A stretch of DNA of 35,493 bases. Source: Ktedonobacterales bacterium (lineage in GTDB: Bacteria; Chloroflexota; Ktedonobacteria; Ktedonobacterales; DATBGS01). Under the pieces are notes generated by a model. It saw only the letters and a program-made list of their open reading frames with translations, was not told the origin of the DNA and ran no database searches. Positions 394-25,799 of this stretch are shown here, in pieces. Every line of letters starts with the position of its first letter. The stretch's first letter is position 1. The translations under genes and the position numbers were made by a program. Location: the NCBI GenBank assembly GCA_036557285.1, contig DATBHW010000079.1:1-35493 (forward strand), read 5' to 3'.

Positions 394-1119
394 CTACTCC
401 CGCACAATCTCCCCGGTGCCTTCAATGGCTGGATCGCGCGCATATTCTGGATAGGCGATGTCCCAGATAATGCCAGCCTCGATTCGTGCCTCCCAGCGTC
501 TGAGCGCATCCAGCACCACCTTGCGCTGAAGGTCTTTTTGGAACGGCCCGCCCGTACAATCTCCCAACGTAAAGCCCACCGGATGGATGGCGCGCGGTGG
601 CCCCATCTGCCTCGAAGCTTCCGGCACAAGGGTGATGAGAACCGTTGGAATAGCGAGCATCTCTAACTCACGTTGAATCGCTACGACCGTGCGATGGCAG
701 AGCGGTCAGCCAGCGGTGAGCAAGACCGCATCAGCCGAGGAACGCTCGATGAGACGGGCCATCTCTGGCGCGGCGCGCTCGTAGAGGTCTTTGAGTAGCT
801 GGCTATACCCCATAAAGCCCAGGTGCCGGTTACTGATCCCTTTAATCACACCCTCGGCAGCCAGTTCGCGCAGGCGATCAATCGGAAAGACGCAGTTGAT
901 GTCCTGGTCGGCGTGGCGGTGATCGTAATGCTCATGTGTGACCATGAGATCGCCACTTTCCACATCGCCAGGTAGCTCGCGCCAGGTATTATCGCCTTCA
1001 AGTTTATATGGCTCCTGGCTGCGCAAATGGATACCTGCTGTGCTGACCAGAGCAAAGGTGCTGGCGCTTAACTCAAGCCTGCGTGGAGTATAGGGAATAC
1101 AGCGGCGCGACATTGCCAT
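394..1119 (-). CDS. GrdB/PrdB-family selenoprotein (in-frame UGA read as selenocysteine)
   Basis: The frame starts at ATG 1119 after an AGGTGA ribosome site with a 6-nt gap. It runs 137 codons to a TGA at 708-706, then stays open without a frame change to TAG at 396-394. Read through, it is 241 residues, close to my recollection of the length of the D-proline reductase subunit PrdB. The N-terminal half has family-like patches (TAGIHLR, THEHYDHRHADQD, VFPIDRLREL, FMGY). The UGA is residue 138, in the context LLTAG-U-PLC, a U-x-x-C redox motif at the position where GrdB/PrdB proteins carry selenocysteine. The sequence after the UGA is family-like too (AIPTVLITLVPE, then PPRAIHP and GFTLGD). Family members use the selenol in reductive cleavage of C-N bonds or other dithiol-linked reductions; the substrate here is unknown. 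The alternative is a pseudogene with a nonsense mutation. The conserved second half and the hairpin after the UGA argue against that. Confidence 0.8.
677..695 (-). promoter_or_regulatory. Bacterial SECIS-like hairpin just after the in-frame UGA
   Basis: Reading the minus strand, nucleotides 11-29 after the UGA form a stem ATCGC/GCGAT, a bulged A, two more pairs AC/GT, and an apical loop GGUC. The GGU begins 18 nt after the UGA. This spacing and loop closely match the E. coli fdhF SECIS, which also has an apical GGUC loop and one bulged base. In bacteria SelB binds this element to deliver Sec-tRNA. The fold was found by eye and not scored. Confidence 0.7.
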
Positions 1120-19094: not shown

Positions 19095-19300
19095 CCACGC
19101 CACGGGTATAGTCCCTATCTGATAGCTTCACAGCGTTAGTTTGTGTCGGAGCTTTGCTGCTGTCCAGCTCCAGGCAGCACGCGGCGCGTCATCTCTTTGG
19201 AGCAAACGGGCAGGTAAGGGCTGGGAAGTCCGGCGCACAAAGGCCCAGGAACATGACCTGGATCATCACTGATTGGAAACTTGAGAAGGAGACACGTACT

Positions 19301-20461
19301 TTGAGTAAGAACGGGAAAGTGAAGGTAGCCATCATCGGTGTAGGAAACTGCGCCTCATCGCTGGTGCAGGGGGTTCACTACTACCGCGACGCCCACGAAG
19401 ATCAGTTCATCCCTGGTCTGATGCACGTGAATCTGGGGGGCTACCACATCCGCGACATCGAATTTGTAGCCGCCTTCGATATTGATCAGAACAAAGTTGG
19501 CAAAGACCTGGGCGAAGCGATCTATGCCACGCCAAACAACACCTATAAATTTGCCGATGTTCCCAGGTTGGGCGTGAATGTCAGCCGGGGCATGACACAC
19601 GATGGCCTGGGCAAATATCTCTCCAGGATCATCACCAAAGCCCCTGGCTCGACAGTGGACATGGTGAAAATCCTCAAAGACACTGGCGCAGATGTTGTCG
19701 TCAACTACCTGCCAGTTGGCAGCGAAACGGCCACCAAATGGTATGTCGAGCAGATCTTGCAGGCGGGCTGCGGCTTTGTGAACTGTATTCCCGTCTTCAT
19801 TGCCCGCGAAGCCTACTGGCGCGCCCGCTTTGAGCAGGCCAGGCTCCCCATCATCGGCGATGACATCAAGAGCCAGGTTGGCGCTACTATTGTCCATCGC
19901 ATGCTCACCCGCCTCTTCCGCGAGCGCGGCGTGCGCCTGGAGCGTACCAGTCAGCTCAACGTTGGCGGCAACACCGATTTCCTGAATATGCTGGAGCGCG
20001 AACGTCTCGAATCCAAGAAAATCTCCAAGACCAACGCTGTCACCAGCCAGCTTGACTATGATCTGGGTGAAGAGAACGTTCACATCGGCCCCAGCGACTA
20101 CGTTGCCTGGCTCACCGACCGCAAGTGGGCCTACATCCGTTTGGAGGGGCGCACCTTTGGGGATGTACCGCTCAATGTCGAACTCAAACTGGAGGTCTGG
20201 GATTCCCCCAATTCCGCTGGAGTCGTCATTGACGCCATTCGCTGCGCGAAGCTGGCGAAAGATCGCGGCATCGGCGGCGCGCTGCTCGGTCCCGCCGGCT
20301 ACTTTATGAAGTCCCCGCCGATTCAGTATCATGATGAAGAGGCTCGCCGGATGACCGAAGAGTTCATCACTGAACACAGCGGCGCCGAACAGGAAGTGAA
20401 GGGCAACGGCAAGCGCGAAGTTGAGCCAGAGGTTGTCCACGAGCTACCCAAGCATAGCTAG
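19301..20461 (+). CDS. ino1: Inositol-3-phosphate synthase (Ino1)
   Basis: A 386-residue enzyme converting glucose-6-phosphate to 1D-myo-inositol 3-phosphate with bound NAD. It opens with [16 protein letters not shown] (NAD motif G13-x-G-NCASS), has [25 protein letters not shown], the segment NYLPVGSE, and the active-site stretch [12 protein letters not shown], all typical of the short bacterial/archaeal form seen in actinobacteria. TTG 19301 is chosen because AAGGAG lies nine nt upstream and the protein then begins as its relatives do; an upstream ATG at 19253 would add 16 odd residues. The C-terminal 30 residues are a charged tail. It heads a block of phosphatidylinositol genes on the same strand. 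Confidence 0.95.
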
Positions 20462-20480
20462 CCAGGTAACGATGGGAGGG

Positions 20481-20508
20481 TACAGAGATCACACCCTGCA
20501 TCTCTGTA
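20481..20508 (+). terminator. Hairpin after ino1
   Basis: A perfect 9-bp stem (TACAGAGAT/ATCTCTGTA) with a 10-nt loop lies 20 nt after the ino1 stop. It is followed by CTCCTCATCC rather than a T-run, so it may be a weak terminator or an mRNA end-protecting structure. Another small hairpin (GCGTCT/AGACGC) lies near 20632-20646 before the next gene. Confidence 0.4.
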
Positions 20509-20682
20509 CTCCTCATCCGCTGATGTATCTCCCCGCATCTCTCATCCGTTGTAGAGGCAGAGAGATCGGCAAAGCAATAAAAGCCCTGAAGCCTTGCGAG
20601 GAGACGAACCAACGTTATTTCCTGGCTTTACGAGCGTCTCGCAGACGCCTCATTCCTCAAACTGACTAGAAGGTAGTGCGGC

Positions 20683-21588
20683 ATGATCTACTGGCTGCTC
20701 CGCAGCGCAACCTGGCTGGTTCGCTGGATACCCGGCAAACCGCGTCGAGTCATCGGTGGACTCCTGTGCGTGGCAGCCTACTGGTGTTGGCCCGAAAAAC
20801 GGCGCAACACCATCAACAACATGGCGCACATCCTGGGGCGTCCCGCTTCTGATCGCCAGGTACGACAGTTAGCGCGCCGCTCCTGGGGCAATTATGGCCG
20901 CTATCTGGGAGACTTCTTTAATTTCCCAAATGTAACCAGGCCGCAACTGTTGTCGCGTCTGGTTGATATATCCCCAGCCGCCGGCGGCTGGGTTCAGATT
21001 GCTAAAGAAGGACTGGCGCGGGGCAAAGGGATCATCATTGCCACCGCCCACTTTGGGAACTGGGACGTAGCTGGCGCATTGGTCGCGTCGCGTATCTCCA
21101 TGGCTGCCATTGCCGAAACATTTCCAGACCCACGTGTCAACGCGCTGGTACAGGGGCAGCGCGCCGAAAAAGGCATTCGTGTGATCCCAATGGAAGGCGT
21201 CGGCGCAAGGAAAGTGCTGCAAGCTCTCAAAAACAACGAGGCAGTCGCTATTGTGTTTGATCGCCCTATGACCGCCAAAGATGGCGTACCAGTCACCTTC
21301 TTTGGCAGCACAACCTATGTCCCAGGCGGCGTTGCCGCCCTGGCGCTCAAAGCTGGCGCAACCATCATGCCTGGCTTTGCCTGGTACGCCGAGGAAATAC
21401 CCGGCTCTTACTATGGCAAAGCCGGTCGCCCGATCATCGCTGAGCCGGTTCCCGGCAAAACCACCGCCGAGCAGGTGGTGGAAATAACACAACAGATGTG
21501 CGACGCGCTCGAAGCGATTATCCGCGAAGCGCCTGACCAATGGTATATGTTTCGCTCATTCTGGCCGAAGGAGAAGACCTCAAGATGA
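20683..21588 (+). CDS. HtrB/LpxL-type lysophospholipid acyltransferase, PatA-like (first copy)
   Basis: A 301-residue membrane-associated acyltransferase. The acyltransferase signature H-x4-D is present as H123-FGNW-D128 in IIIATAHFGNWD. Other family stretches are KRRNTINNMAHILG, FDRPMTAKDGVPVTFFG and PDQWYMFRSFW. The N-terminus has a hydrophobic segment for membrane contact. Relatives acylate lipid A, or in actinobacteria acylate phosphatidylinositol mannosides (PatA). Given ino1, pimA and PIP-synthase neighbours, a PIM-type acceptor is the better guess. AAGGTAG lies upstream of the ATG. Its stop overlaps the next start by 4 nt (ATGA). Confidence 0.88.
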   Translation: MIYWLLRSATWLVRWIPGKPRRVIGGLLCVAAYWCWPEKRRNTINNMAHILGRPASDRQVRQLARRSWGNYGRYLGDFFNFPNVTRPQLLSRLVDISPAAGGWVQIAKEGLARGKGIIIATAHFGNWDVAGALVASRISMAAIAETFPDPRVNALVQGQRAEKGIRVIPMEGVGARKVLQALKNNEAVAIVFDRPMTAKDGVPVTFFGSTTYVPGGVAALALKAGATIMPGFAWYAEEIPGSYYGKAGRPIIAEPVPGKTTAEQVVEITQQMCDALEAIIREAPDQWYMFRSFWPKEKTSR

Positions 21589-22565
21589 AGTACTGGCTCT
21601 TTCGGGTTGGTCTCGCAGTTATCCCACACCTTCCGCAGCGACTGGCGCAGCAAGGCGCGCTGGCGGCTGGCTGGCTCCTCTGGATACTGCTGCCGGGGCC
21701 GCGCCGACAGGTGAGCGAAAACCTGCGCCATGTGCCGCGCCTGGCGGCAGATCCGCCAGTGCTGCGCCGGGCCGTGCGGAACGTTTTCGGGAACAGCATC
21801 TTAAACTATGTTGATTTCTTCCGGCTGAGCACTGTGAGCGCGGCTGAATTGGCCGATTACTGGGAGGTGAGCGGCCTGGAACATCTGGACGCGGCGCTGG
21901 CAAAGGGGCGCGGCTGCATTCTGATTAGCGGCCATCTGGGAAACTTCGATTATGCCATGCGCCACTTCATCAATCTGGGCTATACGATCACCGTCACCCA
22001 GGAACGCCTCAAGCCAGAGCGGCTGCACGAACTCGTGATGCAGGCCCGCAGCACCCCTGGGGTACACTGGGCGCCGGTGGACTCGGCCAGCGGGCTGCGC
22101 CAACTTTTCAGTGCCCTGCGCCGTAATGAAGTAGTGATTATGCCAGCAGACCGTGATATTCAAGGGCATGGGGAAATCGTCCCACTCTTTGGCGCGCCAG
22201 CCCGTCTGCCCCCTGGTGGGGTACAACTCGCCCAACGGACAGGCGCTGCGCTCCTGGGTGTTTTTCCTCATCGCAAAGGGCTGGCACATGGGCATGGTGA
22301 GGTTGTCCCCTTGCCAGTGTTGACTGCTGAAGAAGAGGCTGCCGAGCCAGACCCGCTGCGCCAGAACCTGCATCGGGCGGCAAAGCTCCTGGAACAACAA
22401 ATTGAGCGTAATCCAGAGCAATGGGTCGTCTTCCAGCCAATCTGGTTGGCTGAACCAGCCGCAGCGCCCATTGGGCCTGACGGAGCAGATACCCTATCGC
22501 TTCAGCAGCCGGAGTCAGCCGCGCCCCAACACAACGAAAATCTGCAAACGCATCATGTCTCATAA
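21585..22565 (+). CDS. HtrB/LpxL-type lysophospholipid acyltransferase (second copy)
   Basis: A 326-residue paralogue of the preceding gene. It carries H117-LGNF-D122 in ILISGHLGNFDYA, then VIMPADRDIQGHGEIVPLFG and PEQWVVFQPIW, the equivalents of the first copy's motifs. The start ATG 21585 overlaps the upstream stop in an ATGA junction, so translation is probably coupled. The two copies are clearly diverged, suggesting two different acceptor positions or acyl chains. The last 50 residues form a Gln/Pro/Ala-rich tail beyond the usual family length. Confidence 0.88.
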   Translation: MKYWLFRVGLAVIPHLPQRLAQQGALAAGWLLWILLPGPRRQVSENLRHVPRLAADPPVLRRAVRNVFGNSILNYVDFFRLSTVSAAELADYWEVSGLEHLDAALAKGRGCILISGHLGNFDYAMRHFINLGYTITVTQERLKPERLHELVMQARSTPGVHWAPVDSASGLRQLFSALRRNEVVIMPADRDIQGHGEIVPLFGAPARLPPGGVQLAQRTGAALLGVFPHRKGLAHGHGEVVPLPVLTAEEEAAEPDPLRQNLHRAAKLLEQQIERNPEQWVVFQPIWLAEPAAAPIGPDGADTLSLQQPESAAPQHNENLQTHHVS

Positions 22566-22597
22566 TCCATTCTTGACAGAACCTTAACACTTGTCTG

Positions 22598-22626
22598 ATG
22601 ACAGAAAACACATCACAGCATACAAT
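22598..22626 (+). promoter_or_regulatory. Promoter upstream of the PHP-domain gene
   Basis: ATGACA (22598-22603) and TACAAT (22621-22626) are 17 nt apart, each one mismatch from consensus. A second possible -35 (TTGACA, 22573-22578) lies upstream without a good -10. The PHP gene starts about 120 nt downstream. It would allow the second half of the lipid block to be expressed separately. Confidence 0.5.
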
Positions 22627-22751
22627 GACAGAAACCGAATATCGATCACACAAATTGGCAAACGAGTGGGGCGTGATAACCAGCACGTCACGGCCACCCG
22701 AACCCATCATAACCAGCAGATGTACTCTCTGGAGAGGAAACACAACCACCT

Positions 22752-23699
22752 ATGGACGCGAAGCAAGGGATGTCGGATAAAACACCCAGGACAATCGCCT
22801 GGGAGAACCTATCGGGTCAGCCAGCCATTATGCCTCTTGGCCGGGCAGATGTGCATATGCACAGCGTCTACAGCGACGGGTTAGGCGCTATACAAGACAT
22901 CCTTGCCTTCGTCAGCCAGCAGCGCGACCTGGATGTGATTGCTATTACCGATCATAACACCATCGAGGGCGCTCTGCGCGCCCGTGAGCTTGCCTGCAAA
23001 CAGCGCGCCAGCTTTGAGGTCATTGTCGGCGAAGAGGTAAGCACTCGTGAAGGCCATCTGCTCACGCTGTTCATCGAACGGCGCATCCCGCCAGGTTTGA
23101 GCGTCGAGCGCAGCATTGAACTTGCCCATGAGCAGGGGGGCATCGCCATCATCGCTCATCCCTTCAACCGTGTCTTTCGTCACAGCATCCAGCGCGAGGT
23201 GGTGAATCGGCTGAAACATGCGGCTTTTGAAGCACAGCCCGACGGGATTGAAACACTGAACGGGAGCTTTGCAGGCATCGGCTCATCCCGGTTGGCAATG
23301 GCCCGCAATCGCCAGCGGTATGGGTGGCCTGAAACGGGAAGCAGCGACGCCCATACCGTCACAGCCATTGGCTGCGCCTTCACCTGGTTTGCTGGAACGA
23401 GCGCAGATGATCTGCGCGCCTCCCTGCTGGACTGCACCACCATGCCTGGTGGACGGTTCTGGCAGACCTATGAGTATTGGCAGCTTGCAAGTCATTGGGC
23501 GCGTAAAGGACGGCCAGGTCGCCCAACTCGCAGCGAGCGTCTGCGTCGGCTTGGGCAGTCAGAGCATCTGGCGCTGCTTCGGCATTTTAGCCAGATCGCC
23601 CGACGCCCCCTGGCGGAGCGGCACTCCCAACAACCGGCAGCAGCGATTGATGCGCCTGAAAGCAGCATTGAGCAGGATGTTCGGCGACGCCAGCGATAG
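22752..23699 (+). CDS. PHP-domain metal-dependent phosphoesterase
   Basis: A 315-residue protein with a PHP domain over about 31-250. The metal ligands are visible as H35-x-H37 (ADVHMHSVYSDG), D-H in AITDHNT, E in VGEEVST, H in IAHPF, and D-x-H in GSSDAHT. PHP enzymes hydrolyse phosphate esters (histidinol phosphatase, 5'-3' exonucleases, trpH-like). The C-terminal 65 residues are Arg/Gln-rich and probably disordered. It sits between the acyltransferases and the PimA-like gene, so a phosphatidylinositol-phosphate phosphatase role is conceivable but unproven. ATG 22752 lacks a close ribosome site; ATG 22770 after AAGGG is an alternative. Confidence 0.85.
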   Translation: MDAKQGMSDKTPRTIAWENLSGQPAIMPLGRADVHMHSVYSDGLGAIQDILAFVSQQRDLDVIAITDHNTIEGALRARELACKQRASFEVIVGEEVSTREGHLLTLFIERRIPPGLSVERSIELAHEQGGIAIIAHPFNRVFRHSIQREVVNRLKHAAFEAQPDGIETLNGSFAGIGSSRLAMARNRQRYGWPETGSSDAHTVTAIGCAFTWFAGTSADDLRASLLDCTTMPGGRFWQTYEYWQLASHWARKGRPGRPTRSERLRRLGQSEHLALLRHFSQIARRPLAERHSQQPAAAIDAPESSIEQDVRRRQR

Positions 23700-23788
23700 A
23701 AATGGAGCTTTCGGCTTTTAACAACGTCCAGAGTGTAGAGTTACTATAGAGGAGATGGGCAACCACGCAGCGGCGAGCATCGTCCTGG

Positions 23789-24991
23789 GTGGACCCAACG
23801 AATGTTGTGAAAATAGGCTTTGTCTCACCGTATGATTGGAGCTTTGAAGGTGGTGTACGCAGCCACATCACGCAGCTAGCCGCCGAGCTAGAACGGATGG
23901 GGCACACAACAGGCATCATCACCTCAGCCACTGGAGAAAAAGGTCGGCGCCGCGAACCTAAAGTCGAAAAACTTGGGTGGGCCATGCCTATCCCCTGGAA
24001 TGGGTCAATTGCGCGGATTGCCGTCTCCCCGCTGCTTGCCCGCCAGACCAGAGCGGTCCTGGAGCGCGAACAGTTTGATGTTATTCACCTGCACGAGCCG
24101 CTGGCCCCGGCCCTGCCGCTCACCACCCTGCATGTCCTCAAGGGCTTGAATACGGTCAGCGTCGGCACCTTCCATGCCTTCGCCCCCAATAATCTCGTCT
24201 CCATGCCGCGCCTTTCCTACGCTTCGGGGCGTGTCGTACTGCGGCGCTATTTCAACCGTCTTGACGGGCATATCGCCGTCTCGCCTGCCGCTTATCAGTT
24301 TGCCAGCCGCTATTTTCCTGGGCATTATCAGATTATCCCAAATGGTGTCGATCTGCATCGTTTCAGCGTCCAGGCTGAAGCCCTGCCCCAGTTTGCCGAC
24401 GGGAAGCTCAATATCCTATATCTGGGGCGTATCGAACCGCGCAAGGGCCTCAAATATCTGGTGCAGGCCATCCCCCAGATTCGCGCCCGCTATCCCCAGA
24501 CGCGCTTCATCATCGGGAGCGATGGCCCCCAACGGTCCCACTACGAAAAACTGGTGCGTCGGCATGGCTGGCCGGATGTCGTCTTTACCGGGCGCGTACC
24601 CGACGAAGAGCTTCCACGCTATTATGCCAGTTGTGACCTCTTTTGCGCCCCCAGCACCGGCAGCGAAAGTCAAGGTGTGGTATTATTGGAAGCGATGGCT
24701 TCAAGCAAACCAGTCGTTGCTTCCAATATTGATGGCTATCGGGATGTCATCCGTAATGAAGCAGATGGATTCCTGGTCGCGCCACGGAATAGCGAAGCAC
24801 TGGCTGGGGCTATCTGCCGGTTGTTGGGCGATATGACATTGCGCAGAACGATGGGAACAAGTGGGCGCGAGCATGCCGGGGAGTTTTCCTGGCCTCGGAT
24901 TGCCAACCGTATTGTTGACTATTACCAGGTACTCATCGAACAACATGCGTACAGCAAGACCCCACAACATAATCTTTTTGCCCTCTTATAG
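23789..24991 (+). CDS. pimA: GT4 glycosyltransferase, PimA-like phosphatidylinositol mannosyltransferase
   Basis: A 400-residue GT-B glycosyltransferase. The N-terminal half resembles mycobacterial PimA closely in pattern: KIGFVSPYDWSFEGGVRSHI, the distinctive PIPWNGSIAR (PIPYNGSVAR in PimA), FDVIHLHEP and VGTFHAFA. The C-terminal half has IPNGVDLHRF, LGRIEPRKGL and the nucleotide-sugar motif ESQGVVLLEAMAS. PimA adds the first mannose from GDP-mannose to phosphatidylinositol at the inner membrane face. GTG 23789 is used; GTG 23807 would make the protein begin like PimA (MKIGF). Neither has a clear ribosome site; an AGGAG lies far upstream near 23750. The PIP-synthase gene follows 49 nt downstream. 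Confidence 0.85.
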   Translation: MDPTNVVKIGFVSPYDWSFEGGVRSHITQLAAELERMGHTTGIITSATGEKGRRREPKVEKLGWAMPIPWNGSIARIAVSPLLARQTRAVLEREQFDVIHLHEPLAPALPLTTLHVLKGLNTVSVGTFHAFAPNNLVSMPRLSYASGRVVLRRYFNRLDGHIAVSPAAYQFASRYFPGHYQIIPNGVDLHRFSVQAEALPQFADGKLNILYLGRIEPRKGLKYLVQAIPQIRARYPQTRFIIGSDGPQRSHYEKLVRRHGWPDVVFTGRVPDEELPRYYASCDLFCAPSTGSESQGVVLLEAMASSKPVVASNIDGYRDVIRNEADGFLVAPRNSEALAGAICRLLGDMTLRRTMGTSGREHAGEFSWPRIANRIVDYYQVLIEQHAYSKTPQHNLFALL

Positions 24992-25040
24992 CATAATGAA
25001 GGGGCTGTAGGGAGAGAGCAAAAAGGGAAGAGGAATTGGT

Positions 25041-25799
25041 ATGATCGGAACCCGTGTCCAGCAATTTATGCGGCGCCTGGTTGAGCGAGCAATGCAACCA
25101 CTGGCTCGCACTGGCATCACCCCCAACATGCTGACACTCATCGGTCTGCTTCTTACCATCTTCACAGCAGGAGTCATCGCGTTCAACCACCTGCGGATTG
25201 GTGGTATCCTGGTGCTTGGCGCTGGAATCTTTGATATGTTTGATGGTGCCATGGCCCGCGTCAGTCAGAAAAGCTCCAAGTTCGGCGCTTTCTTCGATTC
25301 TACGCTGGATCGCTATGCCGAAGGATTACTCCTGCTGGGAATCATCATCTATGCGCAGCTTCACCTGCCAACCCAGCGCATCATTGGCGACATCACCACC
25401 GCGAATCTAGTCGTCTGGTTGACCTATATCGCGGCGCTGAGTTCGCTCATGATTAGCTACACGCGAGCGCGGGCGGAAGGGCTGGGGCTGGAATGCAAGA
25501 TGGGTTTGCTGGCACGCCCTGAACGGGTTATTCTGCTGGCGGCTGGGCTGCTGATTGGGGGCCAACCAGGGTTGCTCTGGACCATGCTGGTGATGGCCGT
25601 CCTCACGACGATTACCGCCATCCAGCGCATTGTCCATATCTGGCGGATTACCCGCCCCCCAAAGGCCGACCCGGCAATTGCCACAGAGACGGTCAAGAGT
25701 AGGAACACCCAGCCCCAGCAGCAAACCAGCGAACAGCACAGAAAATCATGGCGAGCCATGGCAAAAAGACTGAAAACAGAGCAGCCCCTCGAAAGTTAA
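25041..25799 (+). CDS. CDP-alcohol phosphotransferase, phosphatidylinositol-phosphate synthase type
   Basis: A 252-residue membrane enzyme with about six hydrophobic segments. The CDP-alcohol phosphotransferase signature is complete: D65-x2-D68-G-x2-A-R-x8-G82-x3-D86-x3-D90. It condenses CDP-diacylglycerol with an alcohol phosphate. The N-terminus LARTGITPNMLTLIGLLLT and the cluster context (ino1, pimA, acyltransferases) point to the actinobacterial type that uses inositol 3-phosphate to form phosphatidylinositol phosphate; phosphatidylglycerophosphate synthase is the main alternative. The last 45 residues are a Gln/Lys-rich cytosolic tail. AGAGGA lies six nt upstream of ATG 25041. Confidence 0.88.
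   Translation: MIGTRVQQFMRRLVERAMQPLARTGITPNMLTLIGLLLTIFTAGVIAFNHLRIGGILVLGAGIFDMFDGAMARVSQKSSKFGAFFDSTLDRYAEGLLLLGIIIYAQLHLPTQRIIGDITTANLVVWLTYIAALSSLMISYTRARAEGLGLECKMGLLARPERVILLAAGLLIGGQPGLLWTMLVMAVLTTITAIQRIVHIWRITRPPKADPAIATETVKSRNTQPQQQTSEQHRKSWRAMAKRLKTEQPLES

Follow-up and report, generated by a model that had tools for sequence, protein, structure and literature searches.

We analyzed a window of 35,493 nucleotides, the whole of one contig stretch from a Ktedonobacterales bacterium (Chloroflexota), and found that the minus-strand frame at positions 394 to 1119 is almost certainly a genuine selenoprotein gene whose full-length product of 241 residues carries selenocysteine (Sec) at codon 138. 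The predicted protein is an orphan, stand-alone PrdB-like selenoprotein and not a D-proline reductase; it is most likely a thiol/selenol oxidoreductase, as opposed to one half of that enzyme. Directly upstream lies the gene for an AhpE-like one-Cys peroxiredoxin. Our preferred proposal, to which we give somewhat less than an even chance, is that in Ktedonobacterales the PrdB-like UxxC protein recycles or assists this neighbor.

A single frame reads through an in-frame UGA

An earlier note on this DNA had described one frame running from 1119 to 394 across a single TGA and continuing for 103 codons beyond it, and rereading of the sequence bore this out. The frame opens with ATG at 1119 and closes with TAG at 396-394. 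The TGA at 708-706 is its sole interruption, with no other stop and no frameshift, and it lies in the context LLTAG-U-PLCHRTVV, followed by 103 sense codons before the TAG. In profile searches, the half preceding the TGA matched positions 20 to 147 of the PrdB model TIGR04483 (E = 2.6e-35), and the half following it matched positions 151 to 234 (E = 7.6e-10). Because the two halves match consecutive stretches of the same model, the region is read as one gene and not two. Automated annotation would split or miss such a gene, and the Pfam GRDB match stops at the UGA.

The earlier note had also placed the UGA in a U-x-x-C motif (here U-P-L-C) at the Sec site of the reductase family, and had proposed asking whether U or C occupies residue 138. 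The predicted Sec indeed aligned with that of PrdB. Codon 138 was TGA or TGC/TGT, never a codon for another residue, in 37/37 aligned homologous loci. Some of these loci represent one genome that is present in both of two collections, and the set contains 21 distinct sequences; a Cys ortholog is found, for example, in Tengunoibacter tsumagoiensis (L038). The window protein is 64 to 77% identical to its orthologs from 26 further genomes of the order, and distant Chloroflexota homologs have TGA at the equivalent site. In a phylogenetic tree, the Cys copies are nested within the Sec copies, with about five changes of the Sec/Cys label; well-supported branches force at least three such changes, and the outgroup copies are all Sec. 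Purifying selection acts on the gene downstream of the TGA, with a median pN/pS of about 0.27 among nine UGA copies.

A covarying hairpin follows the UGA

A predicted SECIS hairpin lies immediately downstream on the minus strand (positions 677 to 695). Its stem, AUCGC/GCGAU, pairs nucleotides 14 to 18 with nucleotides 28 to 32, counted after the U of the UGA, and is extended by AC/GU; the predicted fold leaves nucleotide 27 (window position 682) bulged and presents GGUC at 688-685 as the apical loop. In the Ktedonobacterales copies, this loop sits about 21 nt from the UGA, a placement much like that in the SECIS of Escherichia coli fdhF. An Rfam scan of the whole window returned no match.

The nucleotides right after the UGA are constrained, by these comparisons, beyond what the protein would need, and synonymous sites there are frozen in the UGA copies only. 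Among nine distinct UGA copies, 5/7 codons for residues 142 to 148 were invariant, compared with 4/78 comparable columns elsewhere (Fisher, 7e-5), and 12 Cys copies had no excess of invariant codons over the same residues. The most variable site in the hairpin region is the predicted bulge. Across 26 Chloroflexota sequences, compensatory changes were seen in 4/5 stem pairs, and covariation reached 0.738, compared with 0.203 when the sequences were shuffled and no more than 0.148 when they were slid. That first count used ungapped sequences picked by hand and left out five misfits of one subgroup; with the five added, the value was 0.597 versus 0.228 shuffled, still far above both controls.

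The genome encodes selenocysteine machinery

The earlier note had called for a search for selA, selB, selC, and selD. The protein genes were all found in the organism's own genome with scores above the curated cutoffs: SelA (580 bits), SelB (351 bits, in a single 667-residue frame), and SelD (387 bits). The selD gene (L018 around 1531; G000:C22:48471-49397) also contains an in-frame TGA, which falls within the active-site motif SCAG-U-ASK and precedes a stable hairpin; selD is predicted to be a second selenoprotein gene of this genome, outside the window.

The remaining component, tRNA-Sec, was not found in the organism's own draft with Rfam, with a covariance model built from 15 relatives (the model-based scans scored the best 150 candidates), or with two DNA patterns scanned over the whole assembly on the assumption of conserved letters. 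ARAGORN confirmed a tRNA-Sec in 15/20 relatives. It was present in seven of the eight scanned relatives that have a UGA copy of the PrdB-like gene, and none was found in three genomes that have a Cys copy in place of Sec (G002, G014, and G017). The draft is 96.9% complete in 82 contigs, and we infer that the missing tRNA-Sec reflects an assembly gap. Gene order could not place it in one, since the order around tRNA-Sec in relatives is kept within one family only.

The failure to find tRNA-Sec in the draft is the one observation that would favor reading the TGA as a premature stop, the product of gene decay or of a sequencing error. An identical TGA recurs in independent genomes, however, and both purifying selection and a covarying SECIS continue past it. 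This explanation, which we consider highly improbable, was rejected on the alternation of TGA with Cys codons, the selection after the TGA, and the covarying hairpin. Near-cognate read-through, with the UGA decoded as some other amino acid such as Trp, is less probable still: the alternative residue at position 138 is always Cys, a SECIS and SelA/SelB/SelD are present, and the other genes of the window are ordinary open frames under table 11. Four independent lines support the Sec reading: the TGA/Cys alternation, the synonymous constraint after the UGA, the covarying hairpin, and the SelA/SelB/SelD genes with the second in-frame TGA in selD. They also support the earlier note's claim that the organism encodes selenocysteine.

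The product is related to PrdB, with no PrdA partner detected

The GrdB/PrdB type that had been assigned to the protein was upheld at the superfamily level, where PF07355 (GRDB) scored 35 bits against a gathering cutoff of 22, but not at the level of true PrdB. The TIGR04483 score was 179.5 bits against an equivalog cutoff of 300, and a real PrdB run as a control scored 422.6 bits. Given a score under that cutoff, we regard the protein as a relative of PrdB and not as PrdB itself. It resembles PrdB, the 26-kDa Sec subunit of D-proline reductase, in size, in the position of the Sec within UxxC (TAG-U-xxCHR context), and in sequence, where alignments covering 90% of the length show about 40% identity with PrdB from clostridia and enterococci. 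It differs in having UPLC where PrdB has UGTC, in adjoining a peroxiredoxin, and in belonging to a lineage that is not a known Stickland fermenter.

PF09338, the profile for PrdA/GrdE, had no match in 24 genomes (the organism's own and 23 relatives); the profile recognizes a real PrdA protein at 79 bits and had no match in any control genome either. No prd gene is present in the window. With no PrdA/GrdE partner detected in the 24 genomes, Stickland reduction of D-proline is unlikely, which fits the earlier proposal of a protein that has no visible reductase partner and a role outside this fermentation. The identity to PrdB and the shared Sec position would be expected of a true PrdB subunit engaged in Stickland fermentation, but the TIGR04483 score and the missing PrdA speak against this possibility, which we judged very remote and rejected.

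The protein is also related to GrdB, GrdF, GrdH, and FarB (of the glycine, sarcosine, betaine, and fluoroacetate reductases; PF07355), with which it shares a homologous C-terminal domain containing UxxC. Those proteins are about 430 residues long and have GrdE-type subunits (and GrdA) as partners, whereas the protein described here is half that length, with no such partner detected. Several other Chloroflexota genomes (G387, G196, G314, G357, and G284) contain three to six PrdB-like genes each, nearly all with one in-frame TGA; these multicopy genomes are predicted to hold an expansion of orphan PrdB-like selenoproteins.

In an AlphaFold model (pLDDT 88), the protein adopts an alpha/beta fold in which residue 138 immediately precedes a helix. 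A search for sequence relatives of known structure found none. A Foldseek search with the model gave no significant match (best E, 0.024), and a second structure comparison gave a general alpha/beta resemblance only (best Z, 9.3, over a chain of 471 residues), so the fold offers no hint of function.

A one-Cys peroxiredoxin adjoins the gene in Ktedonobacterales

The gene directly upstream, on the same strand (1185 to 1670; likely start, ATG 1670), encodes an AhpE-like one-Cys peroxiredoxin (AhpC-TSA, 125.6 bits), an association that the earlier note does not mention. Its best solved relatives are Mycobacterium tuberculosis AhpE. Cys53, in P-x-x-x-S-x-x-C, is the only invariant Cys, and there is no conserved resolving Cys; with a single invariant Cys, the enzyme would need an outside reductant. 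M. tuberculosis AhpE is reduced by mycothiol/mycoredoxin, and the reductant of AhpE outside mycothiol users is an open question (PMC8945050).

Within Ktedonobacterales, an AhpE-like peroxiredoxin was near the PrdB-like gene in 14/18 loci. At the genome level, it lay no more than 4 kb away in 19/26 Ktedonobacterales genomes, in both same-strand and convergent arrangements. The peroxiredoxin was encoded by 26/27 genomes with the PrdB-like gene versus 9/20 without it (Fisher p = 9e-5, a test that ignores kinship). The nine genomes with the peroxiredoxin and without the PrdB-like gene indicate that the link is not obligatory. No peroxiredoxin neighbor was found at 40 distant Chloroflexota loci; the link holds only in Ktedonobacterales, which counts against a partnership. 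A further point on that side is a 10-bp perfect hairpin between the two genes (minus strand, 1141 to 1165; GAGCGGACAG-CATAT-CTGTCCGCTC, followed by the T-rich GTTGTTTT). It forms in the computed fold, and its sequence is not conserved in relatives; it is possibly a terminator or attenuator, which would split the gene pair.

Two observations were made in other Chloroflexota. At L145, L146, L148, and L149 (G137, G144, G116, and G293), four genomes of one genus in a family other than that of the window, the gene immediately upstream of a distant PrdB-like selenoprotein gene encodes thioredoxin. In another genome, an AhpE-like peroxiredoxin homolog with 47% identity (G048:C231:14155-14619) contains one in-frame TGA and may be a Sec-containing version of the proposed partner.

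Proposed function of the PrdB-like protein

The proposal that the protein recycles the peroxiredoxin draws on gene order, co-occurrence, the single Cys of the peroxiredoxin, and the thioredoxin gene upstream in the four genomes above; the step that makes the peroxiredoxin the partner is one that we infer from gene order and co-occurrence alone. In the predicted sequence of events, SelB bound to the hairpin 14 to 32 nt past the UGA would deliver Sec-tRNA at codon 138, and the resulting Sec-x-x-Cys redox pair would sit where a helix of the alpha/beta fold begins. Peroxide would oxidize the single Cys of the peroxiredoxin to a sulfenic acid, the selenolate of the PrdB-like protein would attack this sulfenic acid, and the Cys of UxxC would resolve the resulting selenenyl sulfide. 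Cellular thiols or thioredoxin are candidate donors for resetting the pair. Copies with Cys would still catalyze this reaction, at a lower rate, so that Sec could be replaced by Cys repeatedly. The stricter version, in which the protein is the dedicated reductant of the AhpE-type peroxiredoxin and the two form a peroxide-detoxification pair, seems to us rather unlikely.

The main rival, which we rank close behind peroxiredoxin recycling and likewise hold as tentative, also accepts a selenoprotein and makes it a stand-alone small-molecule reductase, whose selenolate would attack a polarized C-X, S-S, or O-O bond as in GrdB, PrdB, and FarB; the adjoining peroxiredoxin would then share only regulation or place. 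In its favor are the relationship to PrdB/GrdB, in which the substrate is attacked by Sec, and the proposal that GrdB-like FarB cleaves the C-F bond of fluoroacetate (PMC10838667). The mixed neighbors in distant Chloroflexota and the up to six copies per genome would suggest diverse substrates. It is weakened by the lack of a pyruvoyl/GrdE-type partner to polarize a substrate and by the recurrent peroxiredoxin neighborhood, in which changing gene orientation suggests selection for proximity.

If peroxiredoxin recycling is correct, the PrdB/GrdB fold, so far known from the reduction of Stickland substrates, would also serve as a protein-reducing selenol enzyme in a lineage of soil Chloroflexota. 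The arrangement would parallel that of AhpE with mycoredoxin-1/mycothiol, where a one-Cys peroxiredoxin also needs an outside reductant, with a protein bearing a two-residue redox motif again the proposed reductant. Here, however, that reductant would be a PrdB-like selenoprotein in place of a glutaredoxin fold.

Relation to known PrdB-labeled proteins

Earlier ocean surveys had shown UxxC selenoproteins labeled PrdB to be abundant: the excerpts considered here of the Sargasso Sea and GOS papers list 42 (PMC1088965) and 235 (PMC2398784) sequences, respectively. These "Proline reductase PrdB" proteins resemble ours in the UxxC motif and in having Cys homologs. They were named proline reductase by homology, and the same excerpts do not discuss a stand-alone state, a link to a peroxiredoxin, or Ktedonobacterales (PMC1088965, PMC2398784). 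Reviews count D-proline reductase among the selenoprotein families (PMC13188914, PMC9312934). Our literature search found no paper on a PrdB-like gene in Ktedonobacteria or on its pairing with a peroxiredoxin. What appears to be new is the occurrence in the Ktedonobacterales lineage, the recurrent exchange of Sec for Cys, and the proposed partnership with a peroxiredoxin.

The matter extends beyond this order in that few selenoproteins are more common in ocean-surface metagenomes than the PrdB-labeled UxxC proteins, yet the name suggests a role in anaerobic proline fermentation. An orphan protein of this kind, for which no PrdA could be detected, with several natural exchanges of Sec for Cys and a recurrent peroxiredoxin neighbor, would give PrdB-like proteins a concrete, testable partner. 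The copies also form a natural Sec/Cys series for asking what Sec gains over Cys.

Elsewhere in the window, a plus-strand run at 19154 to 25799 encodes an inositol-1-phosphate synthase, two lipid A-type acyltransferases, a PHP protein, a group 1 glycosyltransferase, and a CDP-alcohol phosphatidyltransferase; by analogy, it resembles the phosphatidylinositol (mannoside) cluster of Actinobacteria.
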